From positions 40,860-104,859 of the forward strand of contig MU129074.1 in NCBI GenBank assembly GCA_014904985.1: a stretch of DNA of 64,000 bases, read 5' to 3'. The notes beneath the pieces are model-generated. The model was not told the origin of the DNA. It saw nothing but the letters and a program-made list of their open reading frames with translations, and searched no databases. This DNA is from Hydnum rufescens UP504. Taxonomy: Eukaryota; Basidiomycota; Agaricomycetes; Cantharellales; Hydnaceae. Made by a program: the position numbers and the translations under genes. Position 1 is the stretch's first letter. Each line of letters opens with the position of its first letter. Positions 34,478 to 63,680 of this stretch are shown here, piece after piece.

Positions 34478-37400
34478 ATGTGGAAATCTATTCGAAAACT
34501 TTTTAAAGCCACCAACGAAAACAGCAGCGCTAGGCGTTTCAGGGTCCTCATACTTGGACCAGCGAATGCAGGAAAGACCACTCTCCTCGAGCGACTAACG
34601 GACAGCCCTGCCGGTGCGGCCATAGTGACCCGCAACGGAAAACGTGTAATTACTGTAGATGTTCGTACTTAGTCGAGATGCTGGTCTAATTTATCCCTTT
34701 ATCCCAGGTCAAGGAGGTCCCCAGAGGATACGATCAAGTAAGCGCCATGCTGGCGGATGTGCGCTGAGGTTGCTTCATGATTTTATACCATATAGCGAGG
34801 GATCCACAATGTCGACGATGAAATCACTTACGCATCAAACCCGACATTCGTTTTCCATGACTCTGGTGGTTTCGAGGCGGGAGGGGTCAAGGAGGTCGAG
34901 GCCGTCTGGAAATTTATTCAAAAGCGCTCGTTAGCTTCGCCTTCTCAGCAGTTGCATGCGATTTGGTGCGTTCACCCATGCACTTCACACGTCATCATAC
35001 TTCAACACATCAATTGCTACAGGCTCTGTATTCCAACTGATAATGACAGGCCCTTTGGATTCCTGCACTCAGGCTTTTTCACCAAATCTACAGCAAAAGG
35101 TATGTCCCATCACTAGCGGCCTTCGACACTGTGTTACGCACTGGTCCATGTATCCGTTCAGTGCCTGTTGTTGGAATTTTCACTAAGTTGGATGGAAGAA
35201 GGACGAAAGTGGAGATTGAGGTTCTAGGCCCTGCTCCCAGCCCATCCGATTTCCATGACCAGGCCCAGGTGGTGGATCAGAAAGTGGCTGAATTTGTCAA
35301 TGGACTCGAGACACGATTTCGGAAGGAACAGTACCCACCGGCTGGTTTCATTGGGGTGGGAGGTATGTGTGCTCTATCCAAGCAGCAATTTTTGGCACTC
35401 AAATCTATGGCCTAAAGACATGGATGAAGTTAGTGAACAGAGCATAGCATCATGCAATGAACTTCTTGAAGTCACTATGGATGCTCTTCCCCATGAGACC
35501 CAGAGATCATTGCTTGGGCTCACAGTTTGGAAGAGAAACCGCCGGATTCATACTGCATATGTTTTAAAGCAGTGAGTCTGGATGTCCACCAAGTTGATAG
35601 TGACTTACAATTGTGTTTATCTCCCAGTGTCCTTCATGCTGGAGCTGAAGGTTGTGTCTCAAGCCATATTGATAAGATGATGCTACAATTTGACTATGTT
35701 CAGGGAACATTATGGTGAAAACTCCACAGCCTGTGCAAGATGAAGAATCAGAGTTATGCACAGACAAGGGCTTCAGGATTCTTATGGTGAGTGAATGTGC
35801 TGCCTGCACAGAATTTAAGGTACTGATTGTATCATGCCCTGTAACTGTGACAACTGGTTCTGACAATATGGTACAATATTTTTTCATTGGATGGTGTTGA
35901 CATAGGAGGTATGGCTCCAGGTGCTCACATTTGGTGCACAATCCTTGGCTTACATGTCTCTTTGTGGCACTCTGATGTAGTTGGTCAGTTTGGATCTCTG
36001 ACAATTTCAACACATGGTGACTGGCTGATGCAATTTTGCTGCCATTGGGACACAGTATGTGAGTCCAGACCTCCCATGATTCCATGCATGGTCATTCCCT
36101 GATACCACTTCTGGTGGAATCCACAACACAGGGAGTGAGTTTATGTCTCTTTGTTGACATGAGGTCACTGAGTATATGTTTTTCTGGCATGGATAACATA
36201 GCATGTGAGGATGGATCACCTTACTTTAGATCCACATGTCACCTGCTGATATATCCTATGGTGACATCACGAATGTAGGAGGTAAGACTGCAGTTTGATA
36301 TGTGGTTACTGGCTGATAGAACATTTGGTGGCATGGACATAGGATGTGGGTCAGCTTCCCCCACCATTCAATGTGTTATGGCTGACTCATACATCTTTTC
36401 CATGGCATAAACAACATAGCTTGTATGTCCAGATGTCTTGGAATTTGATGAATGGTCACTGACTAATAAAGCTTTTGTTGATATTCACACTGTAGTATGT
36501 AAGTGTGGATTCAATTTGAGGTCCATGGTTGATACATCATTATGTGGGATGAATAAAATAGGAGGTGAGTTCATAATTCCTGGCTTTCATTGATTATTGG
36601 CTAATGCATCATTTGGTGACATGGATAATGTAGTATGTAAGTGGGAATTTCTTATAACTTAGCACATGGTCACTGGTTGATCCATCATCCAATGGCATGG
36701 ACAATGTAGAGAGTAAGCCTGGATCTCTTACAATTAGATGTGTTCAGGCAGGCTGATATCTCTTTCTGTCATGGACAATGTAGGGAGTAAGTCTGGATCT
36801 CTCACAATATAATGTATGGTCCCTCATTGATACATCATGTGGTTTGACACCACAGCTTGTAAGTTTGGATGTTTTCCAATTTGTTGATGCATGGTCATGG
36901 ACTAATACATTGTTGGATAACACTGATAATATAGGATGTAAGTATGGATCTCCCTCTTCATCCACTATCACTGGCTGACACATCACTGGATGACATAAAT
37001 CATCAAGAATGTGGGCTGCCTTGTGCAACTTTGTGCCTGATAATTGGTTGATCCATTTCTTGGTGGCACTGACAACATAGAATGTAGATATGAATTTGTC
37101 ACTGGTCAAATTATTATTGTTGGCTAATATATCTTTTGGTGATCTTGACAATGCAGGCTGTAGGTTTGGTTCTCTTCCAATGCAATGTAGAGATGCAGAC
37201 TGATATTTCTTGGTTTGACTTGAACAATGTAGGAAGTAAGGCTGGATCTCACAATTTGATGCATGCTCACTGTCTGATACATGGTGTGTTGGACCCAATG
37301 ACAATGTAGCATGTAAGTTCAGATATCTTCTAATTGAACATGGGATCACTGGCCAATATATTCTTTGGTGACATTAATAATGCAGCATGTAAGTTTTTGA

Positions 37401-40400
37401 ACTATGCCACTTTGATGCACAATCACTGGCTGATACATTCTCAATAAACTTGACAATATAGCAGGTGAGCCTGGCTCTCTTTTAACCCAGTGTGTGGTGA
37501 CTTGGTGATCTCTGAATGGTATTAACAATGTAGCTGGTGGGCCCATAAGTTCTCACAATTTGATACAGGATTGCTGGCTGATTCAGTACCTGGTTGCTTT
37601 GACAATGTAGGAAGTGTGTGACATCCCCCACTGGATATATTGGTATTGGCTGATGCACTGCCTGATGGTATCACAAAATGTAGAATGTATGTTGAGATCT
37701 CTTACAGTTGAATGTGAAGCCACTGACTGATACATTGTTTGATGCCATGGACAACATAAGGCAGTAAGATTGCATTTACCACCATTCATTGAGTGGTCCT
37801 CAGTTAATATATCTGGGTGGCCTTGACACCATAGTATGTAAGTCCAGATCTCATACTGATTGATGCATGGTTTCTGCCTGATTCAATTTTTGGTGCCTTC
37901 TGCAAACAAGATGGTAGGCAGGAATACTTGAATTCCATACATCACTGCTGCCTGATTTATCTTCTTGTTGATAACATAGAGGGTAAGATGGGATCTCTGA
38001 AAGTTGATGCAGGGTGCTTCACTGATAGATTGGTTGGTCCACTTGATCACTGTAGGATGTAAGTGCATATCACCCATATGAAGAATGGCTATAAGTTGAT
38101 ACATCTTTTGGTGGCATTGACCACATAGGCTGTAAGTCTGGATGTCATGGAATTCAGTGTATTGTCCCTTGCTGATTCATCTTTTGGTGGCATTGACAAC
38201 ATAGACTGTAAGTCTAGATGTCATAGAATCCAATGGATTGCCACTAGCTGATTCATCTTTTGGTGGCATTGATGACATAGACTGTAAGTCTGGATGTCAT
38301 AGAAGTCAACAGATTGTAACTTGTTGATTCATCTTTTGGTGGCATTGACAACATAGTGGGTAAGTCTGGATGTCTTAGAATTCAATGGATTGTCAATTGC
38401 TGATTCATATTTGGATGGCATTGACAACATAGCGTGTAATGGATGTCTCAGAACTCAATGGATTGTCACTTACTAATTCATCTTTGGTGGCTTCGACAAC
38501 ATAGTGGGTAAGTTTGGATGTGTTAGAATTCAATGGATTGTTCCTTGCTGATTCATTTTTTGGTGGTATTGAAAACCATAGCATGTAAGTCTGGATGTTA
38601 TAGAATTCAGTGGTTTGTCACTTGCTGATTCATCTCTTGGGGGGGCATTGACAAGATAGTGGGTAAGTCTGAATGTCTTAGAATTTGATGCATTGTCCCT
38701 TGATGATTCATCTTGTGGTGGCATTGACAACATAGGCTGTAAGTCTAGATTTCTCAGAATTCAAAGGATTGTCAGTTGCTGATTCATCTTTTGGTGGTGT
38801 TGGGGATAGACTGTGAGTCTGGATGTCATATAATTAAATGGATTGTCACTTAGTGATTCATCTTTTGGTGGCATTGACAACATAGGCTGTAAGTATGGAT
38901 GCCATAGAATTCAATGGATTGTCCCTGGCTGATTCCTCTTTTGGTGGTATTGACAACATAGCATGTAAGTCTGGATGTCATAGAATTCAATGCATTGTCC
39001 ATTGCTGATTCATCCTTTGGTGGCATTGACAACATAGTGGGTAAGTTGTGATGTTATAGAATTCAATGTATTGTGCCTTGCTGATTCATCTTGTGGTGGC
39101 ATTGGTACCACAGGGTGTAAGTATGGATGCCTTGGAACTCAATAGACTGTGACTTGCTGATTCTTCTTTTGGTGGCATTGACAACATAGCGTGTAAGTCT
39201 GGGTGTTTCAGAATTCAATGGATTGTCACTCATTGATTCATCTTTTGGTGGCCTTGACAACATAGTGGGTCAGTCTGGATGTCTTAGGATTCAATGGATT
39301 GTCCCTTGCTCATTCATCTTTTTGGTGACATTTAAAACATAGCATGTAAGTCTGGATGTCATAGAATTCAATGGATTGTCACTTGCTGATTCCTCTTTTG
39401 GTGGCATTGACAACATAGAGGGTCAGTCTTGGTGTCTTAATATTCAATGGATTGTCCCTTGCTGATTCATCTTGTGGTGGCATTGACAACATAGGCTGTG
39501 AGTCTGGATGTCTCAGAATTAAATGGGTTGTCAGTTGCTGATTCATCTTTTGGTGGCACTGAAAACATAGTGGGTAAGTCTGGATGTCATAGAATTCAAT
39601 GGATTGTGACTTAGTGATATATCTTTTGGTGGCATTGACAACATAGGCTGTAAGTCTAGATGCCATAGAATCCAATGGATTGTCCCTTGCTGATCCATCT
39701 TTTGGTGGCATTGACAACATAGCATGTAAGTCTGGATGTCATAGAATTTAATGCATTGTCCCTTGCTGATTCATCCTTTGGTGGCATTGACAACATAGTG
39801 GGTAAGTAGTGATGTTATAGAATTGGATGGATTCTCACTTGCTGATTTGTCTTTTGGTGGGATTGGCACCACAGGGTGTAAGTATGGATGTCTCAGAGTT
39901 CAATGGATTCCCACTTGCTGATTCATCTTTTGGTGGCATTCACAATGCAGGATGTAAGTTTGGATGGCATAGAATTGAATAGATTACCTCTTGCTGATTC
40001 ATCTTTTGATGGCATTGACAACATAGATTGTGAGTCTCATATCTTATAATTGAATAGATTGTCCCTTGCTGATTCATCTTTTGGTACCATTGACAACATA
40101 GACTGTGAGTCTGTATGTCTTCAAAATTGAATAGATTGTCCCTTGTTGATTCATCTTTTCATGGTACTGACCACATAGGTGGTAAATCCAGGTCTCTTAG
40201 AATTTGATGCATCAGGTTCACCAATTCATCCTTTGATTGCATTGACAATGTAGCAAGTGAGTCTGAATGTCTTCAAATTCAATGCATCACCCCTTGCTAA
40301 TTTCCTTGTTTAATGGTATTGATAATCCAGCCTGTGAGCCCAGATGTCCTAGAATTTAATGCACCATCACTTTCTGATGTGCCATTTGGTGGTTTTGACC

Positions 40401-41186
40401 CATAGGAGGTCAGTACACACCTACCACCCTTTGATTTATGATGTCCAGACAATCTCTTATTTCACCACATCCACAACATAGGATGTCAGTCCCTCTCTTG
40501 CTATTCAGTGTATAGTTCTGGCTCATACACATTTTGTTGACCTTTACAATGTAGCTGGTAAGTTCATAGACCTATGCAATGGTATAGTATGCTATTTTTG
40601 GCTGCACTCCTTATAATTGGATTTATTACAGGATAATGTAAGTCACATGGAATGTGCCAAAGCCAAATGATTCTGTGTAATTGCAGTCTCATCATTTCTC
40701 CCCTTCTATCTGGTAAATGTTGTCCAGCATCACCTCCATCCTTGTTCCTATCTCACCTAAGTTTGATTAGGTGCTCAAACATTCAGGGGGTCAAGGCCTG
40801 TGTGCCTTTCCTCAAACTCTTGGTCAGTTTATGTTTTCATTGATTTCCCACTTCCAGGATGTCTAAACAGTCATTAAAGCATCACCTACCTATTCTGTCA
40901 CACCCTAATCTTCAATATCTGGTGTTTGTTTGTTGTCAGGGTTGTGACTAATATAACTGCAAAGGAAATTGCTGATTTGGTTTTTTTTAACCTAGTGGTA
41001 ATCCTTTGGATTCGGAGTGGGAGGAATGCTAATTCACCTGATGCACTTGAAATGGAGCATACCATTAACCTGGTCCAGGCTCAAATTAAGAGTGACTTGG
41101 TGGATTATGAAGATTTTCAAGGACTAGACTCATATGCTACTGCAGAGAGACTAACAAGGATCATTGATGACTACACACCAATGTAG
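34478..41186 (+). CDS. GTPase-domain protein with a chain of about 64 three-nucleotide microexons
   Basis: The N-terminal part is a small G domain: P-loop LILGPANAGKTTLLERL, G3 in FHDSGGFEAGG, G4 in FTKLDGRR. Ordinary exons: 34478-34645, 34708-34737, 34796-34965, 35023-35099, 35162-35362, 35418-35571, 35628-35650 and 35704-35819. They total 741 nt and end in phase 0 at ACTEFK. The chain of 64 units follows (35906-40637; see the block entries), then exons 40687-40712, 40762-40822 and 40965-41186. The last, EIADLVFFNLVVILWIRSGR to DDYTPM, ends at TAG. The 26+61 nt of the first two downstream exons restore phase 0, so the whole model stays in frame: 247 + 65 + 29 + 73 codons, about 414 residues. 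The 35651-35703 intron (GTTGTG donor) and the last acceptor are the weakest choices. A possible 65th microexon (GAT, 40858) also fits. Role of the G protein unknown. Confidence 0.6.
35906..37010 (+). repeat. Microexon chain, units 1-16 (old, diverged units)
   Basis: Each unit is AG, three bases, GT. Triplet positions: 35906 GAG, 35981 TTG, 36056 TAT, 36132 GGA, 36202 CAT, 36279 GAG, 36343 GAT, 36420 CTT, 36496 TAT, 36562 GAG, 36634 TAT, 36710 AGA, 36784 GGA, 36856 CTT, 36935 GAT, 37008 AAT. Introns are 61-76 nt. Donors are mostly GTAAG or GTGAG types; acceptors are TAG or CAG, but AAG at unit 16. Intron bodies differ strongly between units, yet the three-base spacing never changes. A CTGAT or CTAAT branch-like motif usually lies about 25-45 nt before the acceptor. 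Confidence 0.75.
37081..38058 (+). repeat. Microexon chain, units 17-30 (old, diverged units)
   Basis: Triplets: 37081 AAT, 37157 GCT, 37233 GAA, 37310 CAT, 37386 CAT, 37462 CAG, 37534 CTG, 37611 GAA, 37684 AAT, 37761 GCA, 37835 TAT, 37911 ATG, 37980 AGG, 38056 GAT. Acceptors at 37761 and 37911 are AAG; the others are TAG or CAG. All donors start GT. No triplet is a stop in phase 0. In the phase where codons are split one base to two bases, units 28 and 29 would form TGA, so that phase is closed. Confidence 0.75.
38129..39877 (+). repeat. Microexon chain, units 31-54 (recently amplified, 76-bp period)
   Basis: Near-identical units of mostly 76 bp (73-nt intron plus 3). Shared 3' end of the intron: GGTGGCATTGACAACATAG. 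Triplets: 38129 GCT, 38205 ACT, 38281 ACT, 38357 TGG, 38433 CGT, 38505 TGG, 38582 CAT, 38660 TGG, 38736 GCT, 38810 ACT, 38886 GCT, 38962 CAT, 39038 TGG, 39114 GGT, 39190 CGT, 39266 TGG, 39343 CAT, 39419 AGG, 39495 GCT, 39571 TGG, 39647 GCT, 39723 CAT, 39799 TGG, 39875 GGT. The triplets differ while the introns are almost the same. The order shows a ten-unit higher-order repeat. One donor is weak (GTAATG after 38433). Confidence 0.8.
39951..40637 (+). repeat. Microexon chain, units 55-64 (diverging toward the 3' end)
   Basis: Triplets: 39951 GAT, 40027 ATT, 40102 ACT, 40179 GTG, 40254 CAA, 40331 CCT, 40406 GAG, 40482 GAT, 40555 CTG. The final unit is six bases, 40632 GATAAT, followed by GTAAGT. 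Similarity to the amplified units fades along this block. After it come longer, ordinary-looking exons (40687 on) in the same phase. Confidence 0.75.
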
Positions 41187-44467: not shown

Positions 44468-44760
44468 TGTAAGCAGGAGAAAATGGGGAGATCTCTGCCA
44501 CAGTCCGCGATGTTGAATCGAGAACGAAGAATGGGGGCCACCAATATAATCCGAATGTTCAGGTCCGAGTGTAGGAGGGTCTTTAGGATAGAAGATAATC
44601 CGCTGTCAGCAGTAGTTGCCCAAGCAGATGAATAAAGGGGAAATTATGCCACAAATCCCACACTCCAAGGTCCTAGTCTTGTGGCCTTAGACAAAGTGTA
44701 GTAGTAGCAATGTCCTCAGATGGAATTCGCCCAGGAATCCAGCAGCAATACTTCAGTGCT
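44468..44760 (-). repeat. LTR-terminal fragment of a second Gypsy family
   Basis: Begins TGTAAGCAGG and resembles, with many transitions, the first 300 bp of the solo LTR at 61686. It lies directly against the C-terminal end of the integrase fragment on the minus strand, which suggests a deletion joined LTR and integrase. Confidence 0.6.
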
Positions 44761-46104
44761 TCCACACTATCGGCCTTCGCAACACGACTCCATCGGGCTG
44801 TTGGATGACATAGGCTCCAGACAGCCTTCGTTGTACGATAATGAAAGGTCCGAACCACTTTGCTGTCCCTTTTGACCCATGTTGATTGTCCAGTGCTTCA
44901 TTATAAACGATAACCCACTCTCCCGGATAGTATTCACCAATGGCCATTCGCACTGCATGTTTCCTATTGAAGGCATCGGCGGCCTTTAAGCAAGACTTCT
45001 CATTGGCCTGGACTGCGTCATCAAGCAACTCATCATGCTTGCTTATTTGCAGGATCCGCAACGCAAGAAGTTCCTCTGAGGACTTCACAGAGGGCCAGTC
45101 AAGAGAATGAAAGGTTTTGTCTTTCACATCGTAAGGCATTAACGGATGTTGACCATAAAGCAAGTAATAGGGCATATATCTGGTATTTCGCTTGACAGTA
45201 ACCCAATCGGCCCATACTGCATAGCCTACATAGTCGGGCCAATCGTAGATACGAATTCCATGTATTTTCCAAATCACATTAATCCAAACCGTGTGTCCGC
45301 GTTCTGATTTTCCATTCGCTTGTGGATTATAGGGTGAAATCCGTACAACTGGCACCTTATATTTGTCCATGAGCAATTGGATGGCACCCTTAAACTCAGA
45401 TCCATTGTCTATCGTCAGTTGAAAAATGCAGCCGTAACGGCACATTACTTCGAAGAGGAAGTTGGCGATCTTTTCGGAAGACAGAAGTCGCAGCTTCATG
45501 GCTTCGAGGAACCTGGTAAGATTGTCCACCAAGTCTACTATATACTTGAAGCCGTGTTTCCCTTTAGGCATGTTCACCGAGTCCATGTCAAACCGTCTAA
45601 GCAAGGTTCGAGTGTACTGCGGTTGAATTGGAATCTTATTCCTATAGGTCGATCGTATCTGACACTCGTGGCAAGTCTGGCAATACTGCGCGACAAAATT
45701 GTACATATTTGGCCACCAATACGAGTCTCTGATCTTTCGATATGTCGGATCCCATCCTCGATGTCCAGACTCATCATGTGCATCTCGACAGATCCTTAAT
45801 CGTATTTCCTCGTTTAAGACTACTTGCTGAGGTGGCTTATCTCCATTTCGTCTCCATAGCATGTTTTCGAAGATGAAGAATTGCCTGGCCCAATTGGCTA
45901 TCTGGGACCGTTGCTTTCGATCCTCCGGGAGCTTCAGAGTCATCAGGTACGCTAGAATTTCGTCCCAATAATTCAGGGAGTCGTGTTCATAGGTTTTATG
46001 CTCATGGTGCAACTTGTCTGCTGCCGCCTTCTCATCAACCGTTGTGACTTCGCCTTCATATGCTTGGAAGAACATCAAAGTTTCTTCTTCGCTGATGACC
46101 AAAG
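44753..46104 (-). CDS. Integrase fragment of a second Ty3/Gypsy element
   Basis: A 449-codon open frame on the minus strand. It holds the HHCC zinc domain (HDESGHRGWDPTYRKI, CQTCHEC), a DDE core (FDMDSVNMPKG, LTIDNGSEFKG, PQANGKSERGH) and a GPF motif (KWFGPFIIVQRRLSGAYV). RT and RNase H, normally fused upstream, are absent: the frame starts at the edge of the large palindrome. The C-terminus is cut off at the LTR fragment. Unlike its host element it has no premature stop. Confidence 0.85.
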
Positions 46105-48518: not shown

Positions 48519-50600
48519 GCGAGGGGAAGGTCTACGCTGTACAGGATACTTGCATACCGGGAGGATACGTGTCCAAAATTCCAATATACGGTAATTTTGA
48601 TCACCGAAACGGAACACGACTCATCGAGAAACATGTCCTCTGGCGAGGACAGGACAGTTTCCTGGCCTCCACTGACTGTTTAGTCGACACAGCTAACAAA
48701 GTGTACCTGTCCATTGCCAACCCTTCGCCCACGCCCAAGTACGTACAAAAAGGGGAAGTACTAGGTCTAATGCTTGATCCTGTGGCCTGTCTGGCCAAGG
48801 AAGATAGTCTAATGACCAAAGAGAAGGAGCGATTCTATCGATGGGCTGCGCTGGTATGAGCATTAGTGGAAGGGTCCCTCAACCAAAAAGACCTAAATTG
48901 CCCCAACAATGAAGGAAAAGCGGCCCAGTCAATGGCCCCGACTGAGAGCGAAGAACCCAGCAGTTGGGGTCCCAAGACCACTGAATCCAGTAGTTCAGAC
49001 ACGCTCGACTCCAAAGATCTAGAGAAGCTCGTGGACGTGGATCCATCCTTGCCAGCCGAACAAAGAGCCCAGATCTACAAGGTACTATGAAAAAACGAAT
49101 TGGCTTTCGGGTTTGATGGACGATTGGGAAAGCACCCTACCAGGGTGCATATAGAACTCGAAGTGGGGACAAAACCTATTTCGGCAGCGCCATACATTGC
49201 CTCACCCGCCAAACGTGAACTTATCAACAAACAGCTCGACCTATGGTTGAAACAGGGTGTAATCGAACCATCCAACAGCCCTTGGGGAGCCCCTGTACTT
49301 ATCGTACACAAGAACGGCAAGAATTGACTCTGCATAGACTGGAGGAAATTAAACGCAGCCACCATAGCGGACCAGTTCCCCATTCCCCGGCAGACGGACA
49401 TCCTGCAGGCTCTTTCAGGGGCTCAGTACTTGTCCTCCTTTGACACACTAGCAGGTTTCACCCAGCTAGAATTTGACGAAGTCTCCCAGCCCTATACGGC
49501 TATGAGAACTCACCGGGGCCTTCATCAGTTCACTAGAATGCCCTTTGGCTGGCAAAATGGCCTGCCCATCTTCCAACGAGTTATGCAAGAAATTTTATCC
49601 CCCTACTTATGGGTGTTCACTCTAGTCTACATAGACAACATCGTGGTGTATTCCCACTCACTTGAGGAACACCTTAAACACATTGACGCTGTGCTGGATG
49701 CCATCAAAAGATCAGGAATTACCCTGGCACCTCATAAATGCCATGTAGGATATCGTAGCATACGGCTGTTAGACAAAAGGTATCTCAACTAGGTCTATCC
49801 ACAGATGCTGAAAAGGTACGAGCTGTGGCCGCACTAGCCCCTCCCCGGCACCGAAAGGACCTGGAGACCTTTCTAGGAATGACAGTGTATTTTGCTGCCT
49901 ATATTCCTCGCTTCTCAGAATCTGCGGCACCGCTATTCGCACTACTCAGGAAAGGAGTGCCCTGGTACTGGGGGGCCAAACATGAAGAGGCCTACAGGGT
50001 GTTGAAACTAGCCCTCACATCCACACCAGTACGGGGTCACCCGGTCAAAGGATGGGGATACCATCTGTACACAGATGCTTCCGACGTTGCCCTTGCAGGG
50101 GCACTACAGCAGATCCAGCCTATAACCATACAAGACCTACGGGGTACTAAGACTTACGACTGACTACAGAAGGCCTACAATGACAAGAGTCCTATTCCCA
50201 AACTCACAATTAAACTATCAGACACACACGATGACCGATCCCCAACGAATGACTGGGCCCAGAACTTCGAAGATACCGTTGTATTTGTGGAACGGGTTAT
50301 TGCATATTGGAGTTGCATGTGCAAAGCCGCTGAGACGCATTACTACGCCACCGAACAGGAAGCCCTAGCTGCCAAAGACAGCCTGATCTGGTTCCTACCC
50401 TTCATCGAAGGAGAACATATATTACTAGTAACCGATCACGCAGCACTACAATGGGCAAAAACTTACGAGAATGTGAATCGACGCCTTAGCACGTGGGGGG
50501 CAGTATTTGTGGCCTTTCCAGGTATGGCGATTGTACACCGTCCAGGCCAAGTGCACTCCAATGTGGACCCCCTGTCAAGATTGGAATCAACGGCTGAGGT
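48519..50600 (+). pseudogene. pol of the chromovirus: linker, reverse transcriptase, RNase H
   Basis: Frame resumes at EGKVYAVQDTCIPGG. RT follows, with FGFDGRLGKHPTRVH, LCIDWRKLN (the codon before it is TGA where Arg or Lys is expected), FDTLAGFTQLEF and FTRMPFGWQNG. The catalytic box reads VYIDNIVVYS, so the second Asp of the usual YIDD is Asn. A one-base frameshift lies near 49770. RNase H shows LYTDASDVALAGALQQ, THYYATEQEALA and LLVTDHAALQW. In-frame TGA codons at about 48859, 49090, 49327 and 50163. No protease domain is seen upstream. The element cannot make RT from this copy. Confidence 0.88.
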
Positions 50601-52416
50601 AGTATCCCCCATGGACCAAAATATTCCAGAACTTGTAGCCAACGAGGATAGTCAAGCCAAGAGCTGGAACCGTTACATGCACTCCCCCAGCCTTGGGAAA
50701 GCCGTATTTGTCCAAACGAGAGCCCAGGCAAAGGCCCAACCTGGTGCCACAGGGCCGACAATCCCTGTCCCAAGTAATGCGGGGGAAGTCATGCAAGAGG
50801 ATACAGAACCACAACGCCTTCCAAGAAGAGCACCAGGGCTAAACCTAGCAGTCTCATTGGAGATTATATGTCAATTTCAGGAAGGTTACAAGCACAATCC
50901 TGAGTTTAAGGCTATATGGGCCCGAACAAATCCCACGATGGGGGAGGAAAACGTTCCAGATCCGAACATTGAAATTGAGCAATTTCGACGTTTTGCACGA
51001 GGACATAACGGACTGATACTTTTTAAGAATGCCGATAATCAGTTCAGGCTCTGCATACCACGGAACAAACAATTGGACCTGGTCAAAGAGGCGCATGACT
51101 CCCCCCATGAAGCAGCGCATGGGTGGTGGGGAAAAACTCTGGAAGTGCTACAACGAGGTTACTACTGGAAGTCCATGCGAAAGGATGTTATACGGTATTG
51201 TGACACCTGCGACGTATGTCAAAAAACCAAACACGATAGGTCAGGGTCTAAAGGTTACCTGGCCCCGATTGAAGTCCCCAGCCTGCCATTTGAAGTGATC
51301 AGCATGGACTTCGTGACAGGACTACCTGAATCGAAGGGGCACGACGCTATACTCGTAGTAGTGGACAAACTTACCAAGTATGGAATGTTCATACCAACGA
51401 CCACACAGGTCACGGCTGCCCGAGTAGCGACTTTGCTATACCGAGAAGTATACAAACATTTCGGGTTGCCCAAACGGATAGTGAGCGATCGCGACCCTCG
51501 GTTCATAAGCAACTTTTGGCGGGCACTGGCCAACTATTTTGACACCTGACTGGCTATGTCCACGTCACACCATCCTCAAACAGATGGCCAGACGGAGGTC
51601 ATGAACCAACATCTGGAGACCATGATTCGGTGTTATGTGAGCGCTGATCGTATGGACTGGGTCGACTGGCTAGACGTGTTGGCCTCCGCCTACAACCAGG
51701 CAGTGCACTCGTCCACCCAAGCCGCCCCCGCAGAACTATTATTAGGGTACATTCCCTGGACTCCTCTACGACTATTACAGGAGGAAGCCGAACCCCTGCA
51801 AACGACCAGCCCCCTGGCCGACAGTAGAATAAATGCTCTCAGAGTACGACGAGATCTAGCCAGAGACGCTATAGTGAGGTCGGCCGATACTCAAGCCTAC
51901 CAGTACGACAAAAAACGTCGAGCCGTACTATACAAAATAGGCGACGAAGTACTAATAAACCCCCATACCCTAGAACTAGTGGATGTTAAGGGTACAGGTC
52001 GCAAGTTCATGCAACGTCGCATAGGGCCTTTTGAGATCACGGAAGTGGTCAGCCCCACGGCTTACCGGTTAAGGCTGCCCGATTCCATGCCAATGCATAA
52101 TGTGGTCAATCTAGAGCACCTGACACTGTATAGACGGTCGGAAGACAAGGACTGCCCCCGACTCACAAACCCATGGGACAGACTACGGTCTTCAGAAGAG
52201 TACGAGGTGGATGAAATTATTGACCATCGACACAATAAACAAAAACGTTCGATTGAATACCTAGTCCGTTGGTTAGGCTATGGCCCAGAACACGACTCCT
52301 GGCAATCCAGCCGTGACCTAAGAAACGCCCCGGAGGCCCTACAGGAATACCATAGGAAAAAGGCACCCCCTATACCTAAGGCCACCACTCCCATTGAGAT
52401 CTACTTCTTGGGTTAG
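50601..52416 (+). pseudogene. Integrase with chromodomain (chromovirus)
   Basis: HHCC finger (HDSPHEAAHGWWGKTLEV, CDTCDVCQ), DDE core (MDFVTGLPESKG, IVSDRDPRF, HHPQTDGQTEVMNQHLE), GPF motif (RRIGPFEITEVV) and a C-terminal chromodomain (YEVDEIIDHRH, IEYLVRWLGYGPEHDSWQ). The chromodomain in this lineage targets integration to histone-marked chromatin. One nonsense TGA at 51547-51549 follows YFDT, where Arg is expected before LAMSTSHH. The natural stop is TAG at 52414. Confidence 0.9.
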
Positions 52417-61680: not shown

Positions 61681-63068
61681 AACGGTGTAAGCAGGATGGT
61701 TGTTAAACCAATCCAACCACTGTCCATGATGCTGAGCCGGGGACGAAAGAGGGGATCACAGATCTAATCCAGATGTTCAGGTCTGAGTGGGGGAAGGTCT
61801 TTTGAACAGGGAAATTGCAGTGAGCCAACAAAGCCCAAGCAATTAAGTGAGAAAATGTGTGTTTCAGTCAAATTACCACACCCTAAGAATCTCTGCTTGA
61901 GACCTTAGTCAAAGTGTAGTTAGAATTCACTTTTTGTAGTGAGAAATCACCCAGGGACCAGCAGCTGTTCCAGAAGCTTCAAACTGGGGGGGAGAACTAA
62001 TGAATTTGTGTGCTAGCTGCACCTAATATACAATCCAGACTTTGACTCAATAGAAAGTGAAAAAGTCAGACATAAGGGACACACAGAGAAAAAGAAATCA
62101 AGTTAGAATCTTCAAAACTGATGGAGGTATTCCAATTTCAAGATAAAAGGGGAGATTGACACATTACATGCTATTCCTCCTTCAAACCTGGACAAGTTCC
62201 CTTAAGAAAAAGTGGAATAGGTCTCCCTGAGGGTCTTCTCCATCGGACATAAGAGGGCCGGAAGTAATTTGCTATTTTGAATGGTGGAGCAAAGGGGGAG
62301 TCATGGGGAGGGAGTTGTCTTGTGAAAAATGGAGTTCGCGTCCACTCGTTTTTCCCTTGATACCTTTCAATGTGCATTTTTAACAGCTTTCAGGGCGTGG
62401 TACTTGCGAATGAATCCGATAAGAATTGGCTTCGAAAATCAAGAAATACTCCTTTAGAGTATGAATCATGGCAAGATATTGTTACAGGGACCGGATTTTT
62501 GATCCGTTCGTTTCGTGTTTGGTACCTTTCGATAGGTACGATTTGTATCTTTCTGGGCGCGGTAGTTTCGAGTCGATCCGATCAAAAATGATGGAGAAAT
62601 TAGAAGAATACTCCTTCAGAGTAGTGCAGCCCCTATCTGGATCATGTGACAAATCCACGAGTCCAGAATCGGAACTAGGCCCAGTCTGTGTTGTTACATA
62701 ATCACAATTCATCTCCCTTAAGGCAATAGGATGGCTTGGAAGAGCAGGCAAGTCATCCAGTCTTGAAGAAAGATGGCAAGTTGAATTGCCTTGTCCAAAG
62801 AAAATGGACTTGAAGTAGGGCATAAACTGCCCCTTTTTGATGAGGACTGTTGAAGTCTGACAGATAGTCAATAAATTGACTGGTGGACATGGTAAAGGAA
62901 TAAGGCAATATTATGGGTTGGAAAGGGGTAGGAATCCATTTGATTTCTTGAATAAATGAATGGCGATAAAATTAAATGAGTGTGGTGACATATAATTGAT
63001 TCATTCGTAGGGAAAATGGCCTCGGATGAGGATTTCTATGGTGTAGGGATTTATCCCTCCAACAATGG
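61681..63068 (-). mobile_element. Solo LTR (about 1.38 kb), reverse orientation, with target duplication
   Basis: On the plus strand it starts TGTAAGCAGG at 61686 and ends CCCTCCAACA at 63064. The flanks are ACGG (61682-61685) and ATGG (63065-63068), a 4-bp duplication with one CpG-type transition. It splits a copy of the 301-bp tandem repeat. A sub-block of about 70 bp recurs inside it (62394-62462 and 62556-62622). Confidence 0.8.
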
Positions 63069-63680
63069 ACAAGATTTGATGATCCCAGGCAATGTTGAGT
63101 GGGAGCAGGGGAGCAGATGAGGAGCACTGAGGCCAAAAGGTATCAGAATGTCTTCCAAGTGGGGGAGTTGGAAAGCTGTGATTCAGGCGCACAGAATGCA
63201 CCCACACACAGCTGTCCCAACAACCCCCATCCCCCTGGAGGACCACATGGGGGGATTGGGACAAGATTGAGGATAATGAAATGAGAAGTGCTCGGATCAT
63301 GGCATGAATAGGCTTGATGGAACTGGGTGAATGAGATGAATCTAATGAGCCCACGAATGTCCTGAATGAACAATATTTGATGATCCCAGGCAATGTTGAG
63401 TGGGAGCAGGGGAGCAGATGAGGAGCACTGAGGCCAAAAGGTATCAGAATTCCTTGCAAGTGGGGGCATTGGAAAGCTGCAATTCAGGCACACAGAATGC
63501 ATCCACACACAGCTGTCCCAACAACCCCCATCCCCCTGGAGGACCACATGGGGGGATTGGGACAAGATTGAGGATAATGAAATGAGAGGTGCTCAGATCA
63601 TGGCATAAATAGGCTTGACAGAACCAGGTGAATGAGACGGATCTAACAAGCCTACAAATGTCCCAAATGGACAAAAATAG
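63069..63680. repeat. 301-bp tandem repeat
   Basis: Blocks such as GGAGCACTGAGGCCAAAAGG recur at 63121 and 63422, exactly 301 bp apart. Parts recur again near 63600 and, left of the solo LTR, at 61612-61685. About two full units plus partial ones. No gene seen. Confidence 0.8.

Follow-up and report, generated by a model that had tools for sequence, protein, structure and literature searches.

Single-codon exons in tandem: a putative spliced tail in a GTPase gene family of the basidiomycete Hydnum rufescens

Can dozens of exons of one codon each be joined in a row within one gene? This question is raised by a stretch of 64,000 nucleotides from Hydnum rufescens UP504 (contig MU129074.1, positions 40,860 to 104,859 of the forward strand; in the following "the window"), in which a GTPase-like gene runs into a long array of three-base units, each placed between a 3' and a 5' splice site. 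We consider it very probable that this gene is a member of a Hydnum GTPase family and that its chain is spliced in order into a tail of 65 residues; the units would arise by unequal exchange and the codon changes be selected, with recognition as the likely role.

A mechanical scan of the plus strand finds 63 unbroken AG-NNN-GT units from 35906 to 40557, the first triplet being GAG (35906-35908) and the last CTG (40555-40557), followed by a unit of six bases, GATAAT, at 40632-40637. The 64 units which the first-pass annotation had counted between 35906 and 40637 are therefore borne out as 63 triplets and one hexamer between splice sites. As predicted single-codon exons the triplets code for ELYGHEDLYEYRGLDNNAEHHQLENAYMRDATTWRWHWATAHWGRWHRAWAHWGDITVQPEDL; the hexamer, a predicted exon coding for DN that closes the array, reads GATAAT in 11 of 13 aligned loci and GAAAAT and GATCAT in the other two. 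When the same scan is run over the array with other gap lengths (0-2 and 4-12), no chain exceeds four units, whereas a gap of three gives the chain of 63. The reverse strand of the array yields 2 units and the remaining window 3 on the left and 2 on the right; in 200 dinucleotide shuffles the chain never exceeds 3. The 63 introns between the array units are 61-76 nt long. Among the 64 units, GTAAGT (31) and GTGAGT (8) were counted as donors, and the acceptors are TAG (51), CAG (10) and AAG (3).

Searching the genome (63.2 Mb, 539 contigs) with the first kilobase of the array reveals at least 40 places, including the window, which match with E values under 1e-150, scores having been computed for 40 of 136 candidates. 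Besides the window we read 20 stretches of about 9.9 kb among the other 39 places as well as three shorter stretches. All 24 loci hold an array, with 30 to 149 units in a looser scan, several being cut by gaps or by the end of the stretch. With 99 units, L023 has the longest run that is unbroken. In the window the array can be divided into a first part with individually diverged introns (units 1-29, 35906-37982) and a homogenised part (38097-40179) with a 76-bp unit in 27.4 copies at 80% matches. A 30-base motif of the later units has 1283 matches in the genome at three or fewer mismatches and none when reversed. Introner elements are near-identical introns inserted across many unrelated genes; the loci read here all belong to one family.

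Sequences which join such triplets in order were found for two sister genes, among unnamed database proteins from jgi environmental contigs under 1.1 kb that most likely represent RNA. In P0092 (983-nt contig) 71 of 71 residues match consecutive L023 triplets, one per unit, over 5271 bp of genome. None of 200 shuffled peptides could be threaded in this way (the best reached 4 of 71), and in the other 20 loci no more than 5 residues fit. Three L023 units missed by the strict scan have GCAAGT donors, and P0092 carries exactly their residues. It continues past the array into counterparts of three ordinary downstream exons, for which the comparison was with relatives only, the L023 stretch ending in or at the end of the array. 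P0024 (936-nt contig) joins GFRILM, the end of the last ordinary upstream exon, to L023 units 1-30 (12/12 and 18/18, threaded with no shuffled control) over an array span of 2126 bp. At unit 13 (L023 intron 12) it uses an acceptor 9 nt upstream, a small alternative splice that inserts TPQ, and beyond unit 30 it ends in VSPDPY, the translation of a retained intron 30 up to a stop seen in L023. The GTPase part of P0024 is identical to L023 at 61 of 71 and 51 of 56 residues in two ungapped stretches crossing splice junctions; because it differs at several residues, P0024 is likely to come from an allele or near relative of the L023 gene. Taken together P0024 (30 units) and P0092 (71 units, two shared) cover all 99 consecutive L023 units, and the two are perhaps from different alleles. 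In P0086 (1073-nt contig) 23 of 23 units of L028 are matched over 1652 bp, shuffles reaching 3 at best. This protein reads DH at the closing six-base exon and starts with VALTTQ, the L028 intron preceding that unit reading VTLTTQ. A further tail, that of P0095, has about 42 array residues by eye. In the 124 inclusions of the three threaded sequences (30 + 71 + 23) not a single unit is skipped.

If the triplets are exons, their borders and length should be kept where the introns vary. The invariance of AG and GT in scan-based alignments holds by construction and is not used here as evidence. Units were located instead by intron anchors which contain neither the splice sites nor the codon, and which derive from the consensus of chain-scan units and were used within that chain's span. 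This gave 556 units in the 16 loci with at least 15 mid-array units; L014, L015, L024, L025 and L026 were dropped from this count, and L029-L032 are included in the 24-locus counts of units and stops only. All 525 units of standard length have AG and 517 have GT, the eight exceptions being seven GC (GCAAGT) and one AT. Among the 31 units with changed length the 3-base exon is kept in 28; the anchor truncates two more, and in the remaining one the gap measures 2 bases. Insertions and deletions are therefore accepted where they fall to the intron side of the splice site, and within the exon they hardly ever occur. The first block was compared over 19 loci (L014, shifted by one missed unit, was omitted), and units 1-3 and 9-11 are identical in all of them. 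Only one stop is found in 1705 triplets of the 24 loci, located in the partly duplicated array of L031+L032; the 610 mid-array triplets contain none, where about 5 would be expected. The earlier proposal that the triplets are exons kept by selection is upheld by these data together with the environmental sequences of sister genes: the latter spell the triplets out, and splice sites and 3-base length are kept despite varying introns. A plain minisatellite is ruled out for the family by the same observations and by the gap-length controls.

In the later part of the array the introns are alike within a gene, and the codons, unlike their borders, are hypervariable. When 60 flanking columns of this block are ranked together with codon positions 1 and 2 by entropy, at most one of the columns reaches these two positions in 15 of 16 loci, and in the homogenised part of the window these positions are likewise the most variable. 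The exception is L028, whose introns are diverged and where 23 flanking columns reach codon position 1. We then compared unit pairs within genes whose flanks differ at no more than 2 of 60 bases. Of these 1507 close pairs, which are not independent of each other, 1300 have different triplets and 803 differ at two or three codon bases. Codon positions 1, 2 and 3 differ in 58, 69 and 24% of the close pairs, and the flanks at 2.6% per site, or at a slightly higher true rate (2.7%), as the 60 bases include four splice bases required by the scan. Where two units have near-identical introns, their codon positions 1 and 2 thus vary over 20 times as often as the flanks. As third base of the 610 mid-array triplets T (517), A (60) and G (33) occur, but never C; splicing could explain the missing C.

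In the mechanism that we propose each unit of about 76 bp would consist of one codon and a short intron bounded by good GT...AG sites. Judged from the phase, gain or loss of a unit would add or remove exactly one residue with no shift of the frame. The units would multiply through unequal exchange within the array, as in the internally conserved repeats of fungal NLRs, and selection for amino-acid change would retain new codons. In this cheap way a G-domain switch would be given a binding tail that varies both in length and in sequence and may serve in sensing varied non-self partners such as other fungi, bacteria, viruses or plant hosts.

Several observations weigh against this interpretation, in addition to the dependence among the close pairs and the splice bases counted in their flanks. 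That the jgi contigs are RNA was concluded from their length, each being shorter than the array DNA it would need to contain. No sequence splicing the array of the window itself was found among these database proteins, and P0087 equals the unspliced C-terminal region of the window at 104 of 109 residues, so that splicing of the window array is predicted from its sister genes. A protein search with the array peptide of the window gave no candidates, which is an invalid negative, as P0024 shares several of its 5-residue words. In the first block the eight conserved units differ in 2.4% of base comparisons, units 5, 7 and 8 in 27% and the intron bodies in 15.5%, a split into conserved and variable units that was chosen after seeing the data. 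Over all first 11 units the codon positions differ by 12, 10 and 5%, against the 15.5% of the intron bodies, and the first block is therefore to be regarded as a mix of fixed and free codons. Silent changes make up only 6 of the 1300 differing pairs, largely because the third base stays T. Flanks differ by 0.173 within genes and by 0.209 between genes; the gap is small, and flank similarity within genes may be taken as a modest sign of homogenisation. The open frame is supporting evidence only and a weak proof alone, as the joined triplets are also nearly open when shifted by one base (2 stops in 1367 codons, against 276 for a shift of two). No confident structure was obtained for the array part of P0092, residues 1-67 staying below 50 in the predicted local distance difference test (pLDDT), and hence no usable model of the tail. 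Finally, the non-self recognition role is proposed by analogy with fungal NLR sensor repeats and truffle NACHT-ANK genes.

A further point of this kind is that short proteins without the tail may exist, as the reading frame of P0023 and of four public models (P0001, P0002, P0004 and P0005) continues into the first array intron. The main product of the gene could then be a short GTPase ending in this intron, with chain splicing being minor or limited to some stage. The four public models are annotated that way, whereas P0003 has its junction at another place; the end of P0023 (jgi, 1125 nt), ...FKILMVSDTLDSSI, can be read as a retained first array intron, and P0024 and P0086 each retain one intron. 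However, splice sites and exon length are conserved along the chain, and P0092 is spliced through its 71 units into the counterparts of downstream exons. We give this possibility a real but minor chance.

Somewhat more doubtful is an extension of our own proposal, namely a hypervariable receptor written codon by codon, in which introns of about 73 bp would form a recombining, self-homogenising scaffold and the codon would be the fast-changing part, possibly by targeted mutation, with the cell perhaps choosing among codons. A choice of this type is the core of a third possibility, a combinatorial splicing library as proposed for Tuber nank, where any subset of in-frame triplets could be included and each gene would produce many tails. 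Every unit being one phase-0 codon, skipping would keep the frame, and both the alternative acceptor of P0024 and the Tuber precedent, as far as it is described in the sources given below, agree with it. But the three threaded sequences include all units in their range and in order, and we regard such a library as quite unlikely. Still less probable, in our opinion, is that a mutation process aimed at the codon, and not selection alone, creates the variation. The excess of changes at codon positions 1 and 2 over the flanks and the many close pairs with two or three codon differences would fit such a process, whereas the third base which is never C and the lack of stops in mid-array triplets are what selection on splicing and protein predicts; also fungal NLR repeats, in what is reported in PMC9815663, have few positively selected variable positions in similar, exchanged repeats. 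That the array is just a repeat within one long intron, with AG-NNN-GT as its repeat unit and no triplet spliced in, can practically be dismissed: part of the array is truly a tandem repeat and the public model P0001 stops upstream of it, but contigs of no more than 936, 983 and 1073 nt carry, one after the other, the triplets that are spread over 2126, 5271 and 1652 bp of array, the splice sites are kept where other bases vary, and among the 31 length-changed units only one lost the 3-base exon while two could not be judged.

For the gene as spliced along the whole chain, phase predicts 75 exons with 460 codons, 63 exons being of 3 nt and one of 6 nt, in a frame that is open until the stop at 41186. 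All exons are on the plus strand. Exon 1 (34478-34645) starts the GTPase with MWKSIRKLF and the P-loop GPANAGKTT in an open frame and is identical in the annotated protein P0001. Exons 2 (34708-34737), 3 (34796-34965, with the HDSGG motif), 4 (35023-35099), 5 (35162-35362, with TKLD), 6 (35418-35571) and 7 (35628-35650) follow from phase and from P0001. Exon 8 (35704-35786), the last ordinary exon upstream of the array, ends with ...GFRILM in phase 0 at ATG|GTGAGT, a donor present in 14 of 14 aligned loci, and P0024 joins GFRILM to ELYG. An upstream exon of 35704-35819 had been assumed before, which is wrong as the conserved donor follows 35786 and this junction is used in P0024. The intron preceding the first single-codon exon (35787-35905) has 119 nt. 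P0001, a Hydnum rufescens UP504 protein identical to the GTPase of the window over the aligned part, ends by reading into it (...GFRILMVSE).

Downstream of the hexamer the next exon is 40787-40822 (GVKACVPFLKLL), and not one starting at 40687 as given in the first-pass annotation, the acceptor there not being conserved in relatives. Other frames of this exon were ruled out by eye, since it is only when read as GVKACVPFLKLL that most third-base differences among relatives are silent. It is followed by exon 40880-40934 (HHLPILSHPNLQYLVFVC), which has an AAG acceptor; both exons have counterparts in P0092, P0086, P0095 and P0085. The last exon of the gene model (40996-41186) ends with ...IIDDYTPM and the stop, and is covered by P0087 (jgi) in its unspliced frame. 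In public models the gene appears to be divided in two, with a truncated GTPase (for instance P0001) on one side, a separate short protein (for instance P0084) on the other and the array omitted.

P-loop GTPases are characterised by the motifs GxxxxGKT, DxxG and TKxD, and the protein of the window contains them as GPANAGKTT, DSGG and TKLD. Over 367 of its 460 residues Pfam gives only weak P-loop NTPase matches, all below the cut-off, and finds neither NACHT nor ankyrin domains. The structure model of P0001 has a mean pLDDT of 81.5. Compared with the PDB by Foldseek, it has mostly G domains among the 50 matches listed, with TM-scores of 0.29-0.46 by query length and no indication of a subfamily. 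Solved relatives of the GTPase are remote (37 sequences, best E 7e-7), and the fold is, according to the model, a generic G domain. At gathering scores no Rfam family matches the window. In the Hydnum paralogues P0009, P0014, P0025 and P0026 a short acidic repeat (PDEEV-like) is found near the N-terminus in variable runs. This repeat of the sister GTPases could perhaps be a second variable region.

The first-pass annotation knew of no description of tens of tandem 3-nt exons, but reports of such exons exist. Codon-sized mini-exons of 3 bp are reported for the nank genes (NACHT-ankyrin NLRs) of Tuber melanosporum by Iotti et al. 2012, as cited in PMC3689799, PMC4986451, PMC9815663 and PMC10197012, two of which give their number as tens or dozens. 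In these accounts alternative splicing is the stated source of diversity, and a diversification of the sensor region is proposed. Shared with Hydnum are an expanded gene family in an ectomycorrhizal fungus and codon-sized exons in tens or dozens; the window has 63 predicted ones, and L023 has a run of 99 units spelled by P0024 and P0092. In contrast, the truffle genes are those of an ascomycete and encode an NLR with NACHT and ankyrin domains, whereas in this basidiomycete a GTPase is encoded for which Pfam shows neither. Moreover, alternative splicing is described for Tuber, while the threaded Hydnum sequences include every unit in their range, with one alternative acceptor and retained introns among them, and the codons vary between units and genes. 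For Tuber this comparison is based on published descriptions.

The WD40, ANK and TPR repeats with high internal conservation (HIC) of fungal NLRs are, as outlined in PMC4986451 and PMC9815663, similar tandem repeats of variable copy number with few highly variable codons, and these few positions are under positive selection in the sensor repeats. There the conserved repeat is protein; in Hydnum the repeat is nearly all intron, and the variable codon would be its sole contribution to the protein, so that more than 85% identical repeats over at least 100 amino acids of an NLR, by which HIC repeats are defined, do not occur, and no NLR domain was found. Schistosome micro-exon genes share many short exons, mostly multiples of three, with the array. 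In the description of PMC10526429 these exons are mostly of 15 bp (range 3-81 by its abstract, 6-81 by its main text), number 10 to 20 per gene, are separated by introns of 0.1-5 kb and encode secreted proteins; the window has 63 exons of 3 bp and array introns of 61-76 nt. Aphid bicycle genes, implicated as plant gall effectors, form a divergent family with many small exons of one phase, about 17 on average (PMC9168663); these are phase 2 exons, and the array exons of Hydnum are in phase 0. Among the titles and abstract starts listed from open-licence literature, none was on microexons in Hydnum or Cantharellales.

New relative to the publications consulted are accordingly the other phylum and protein class, the 99 consecutive units of one locus spelled out by two RNA-like sequences with no skipping seen in them, and a reversal of roles within the repeat, whose intron is conserved while its codon varies. 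If this is true, one gene has about a hundred single-codon exons which the spliceosome joins consecutively. Exon size and intron-defined splicing would then be at an extreme, with GC-AG introns tolerated. It would also represent a second fungal lineage, a GTPase of Basidiomycota, for the codon-exon design of truffle NLRs, suggesting a recurrent route to variable sensors, and would show how such genes escape notice when public models omit the array.

Some minor observations remain. At unit 18 the close paralogues have a GAG acceptor in 9 of 11 loci compared, the window having CAG and L013 AAG; judged from the acceptor, this unit may be weakly included in the paralogues. In the array of about 149 units in L031+L032 a large part is duplicated internally; this array also has a YYYYYYLP run and the sole stop codon found, and the copy may be decaying or misassembled. 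Transposon-like DNA is present near the array gene of the window: the long open reading frames at 44753-46102 (minus strand), 50287-51549 and 51556-52416 (both plus strand) resemble by eye a retroelement integrase and pieces of a Ty3/gypsy polyprotein. Further downstream, at 63064-63674 of the window, a 301-bp tandem repeat is present in two copies with 91% matches.

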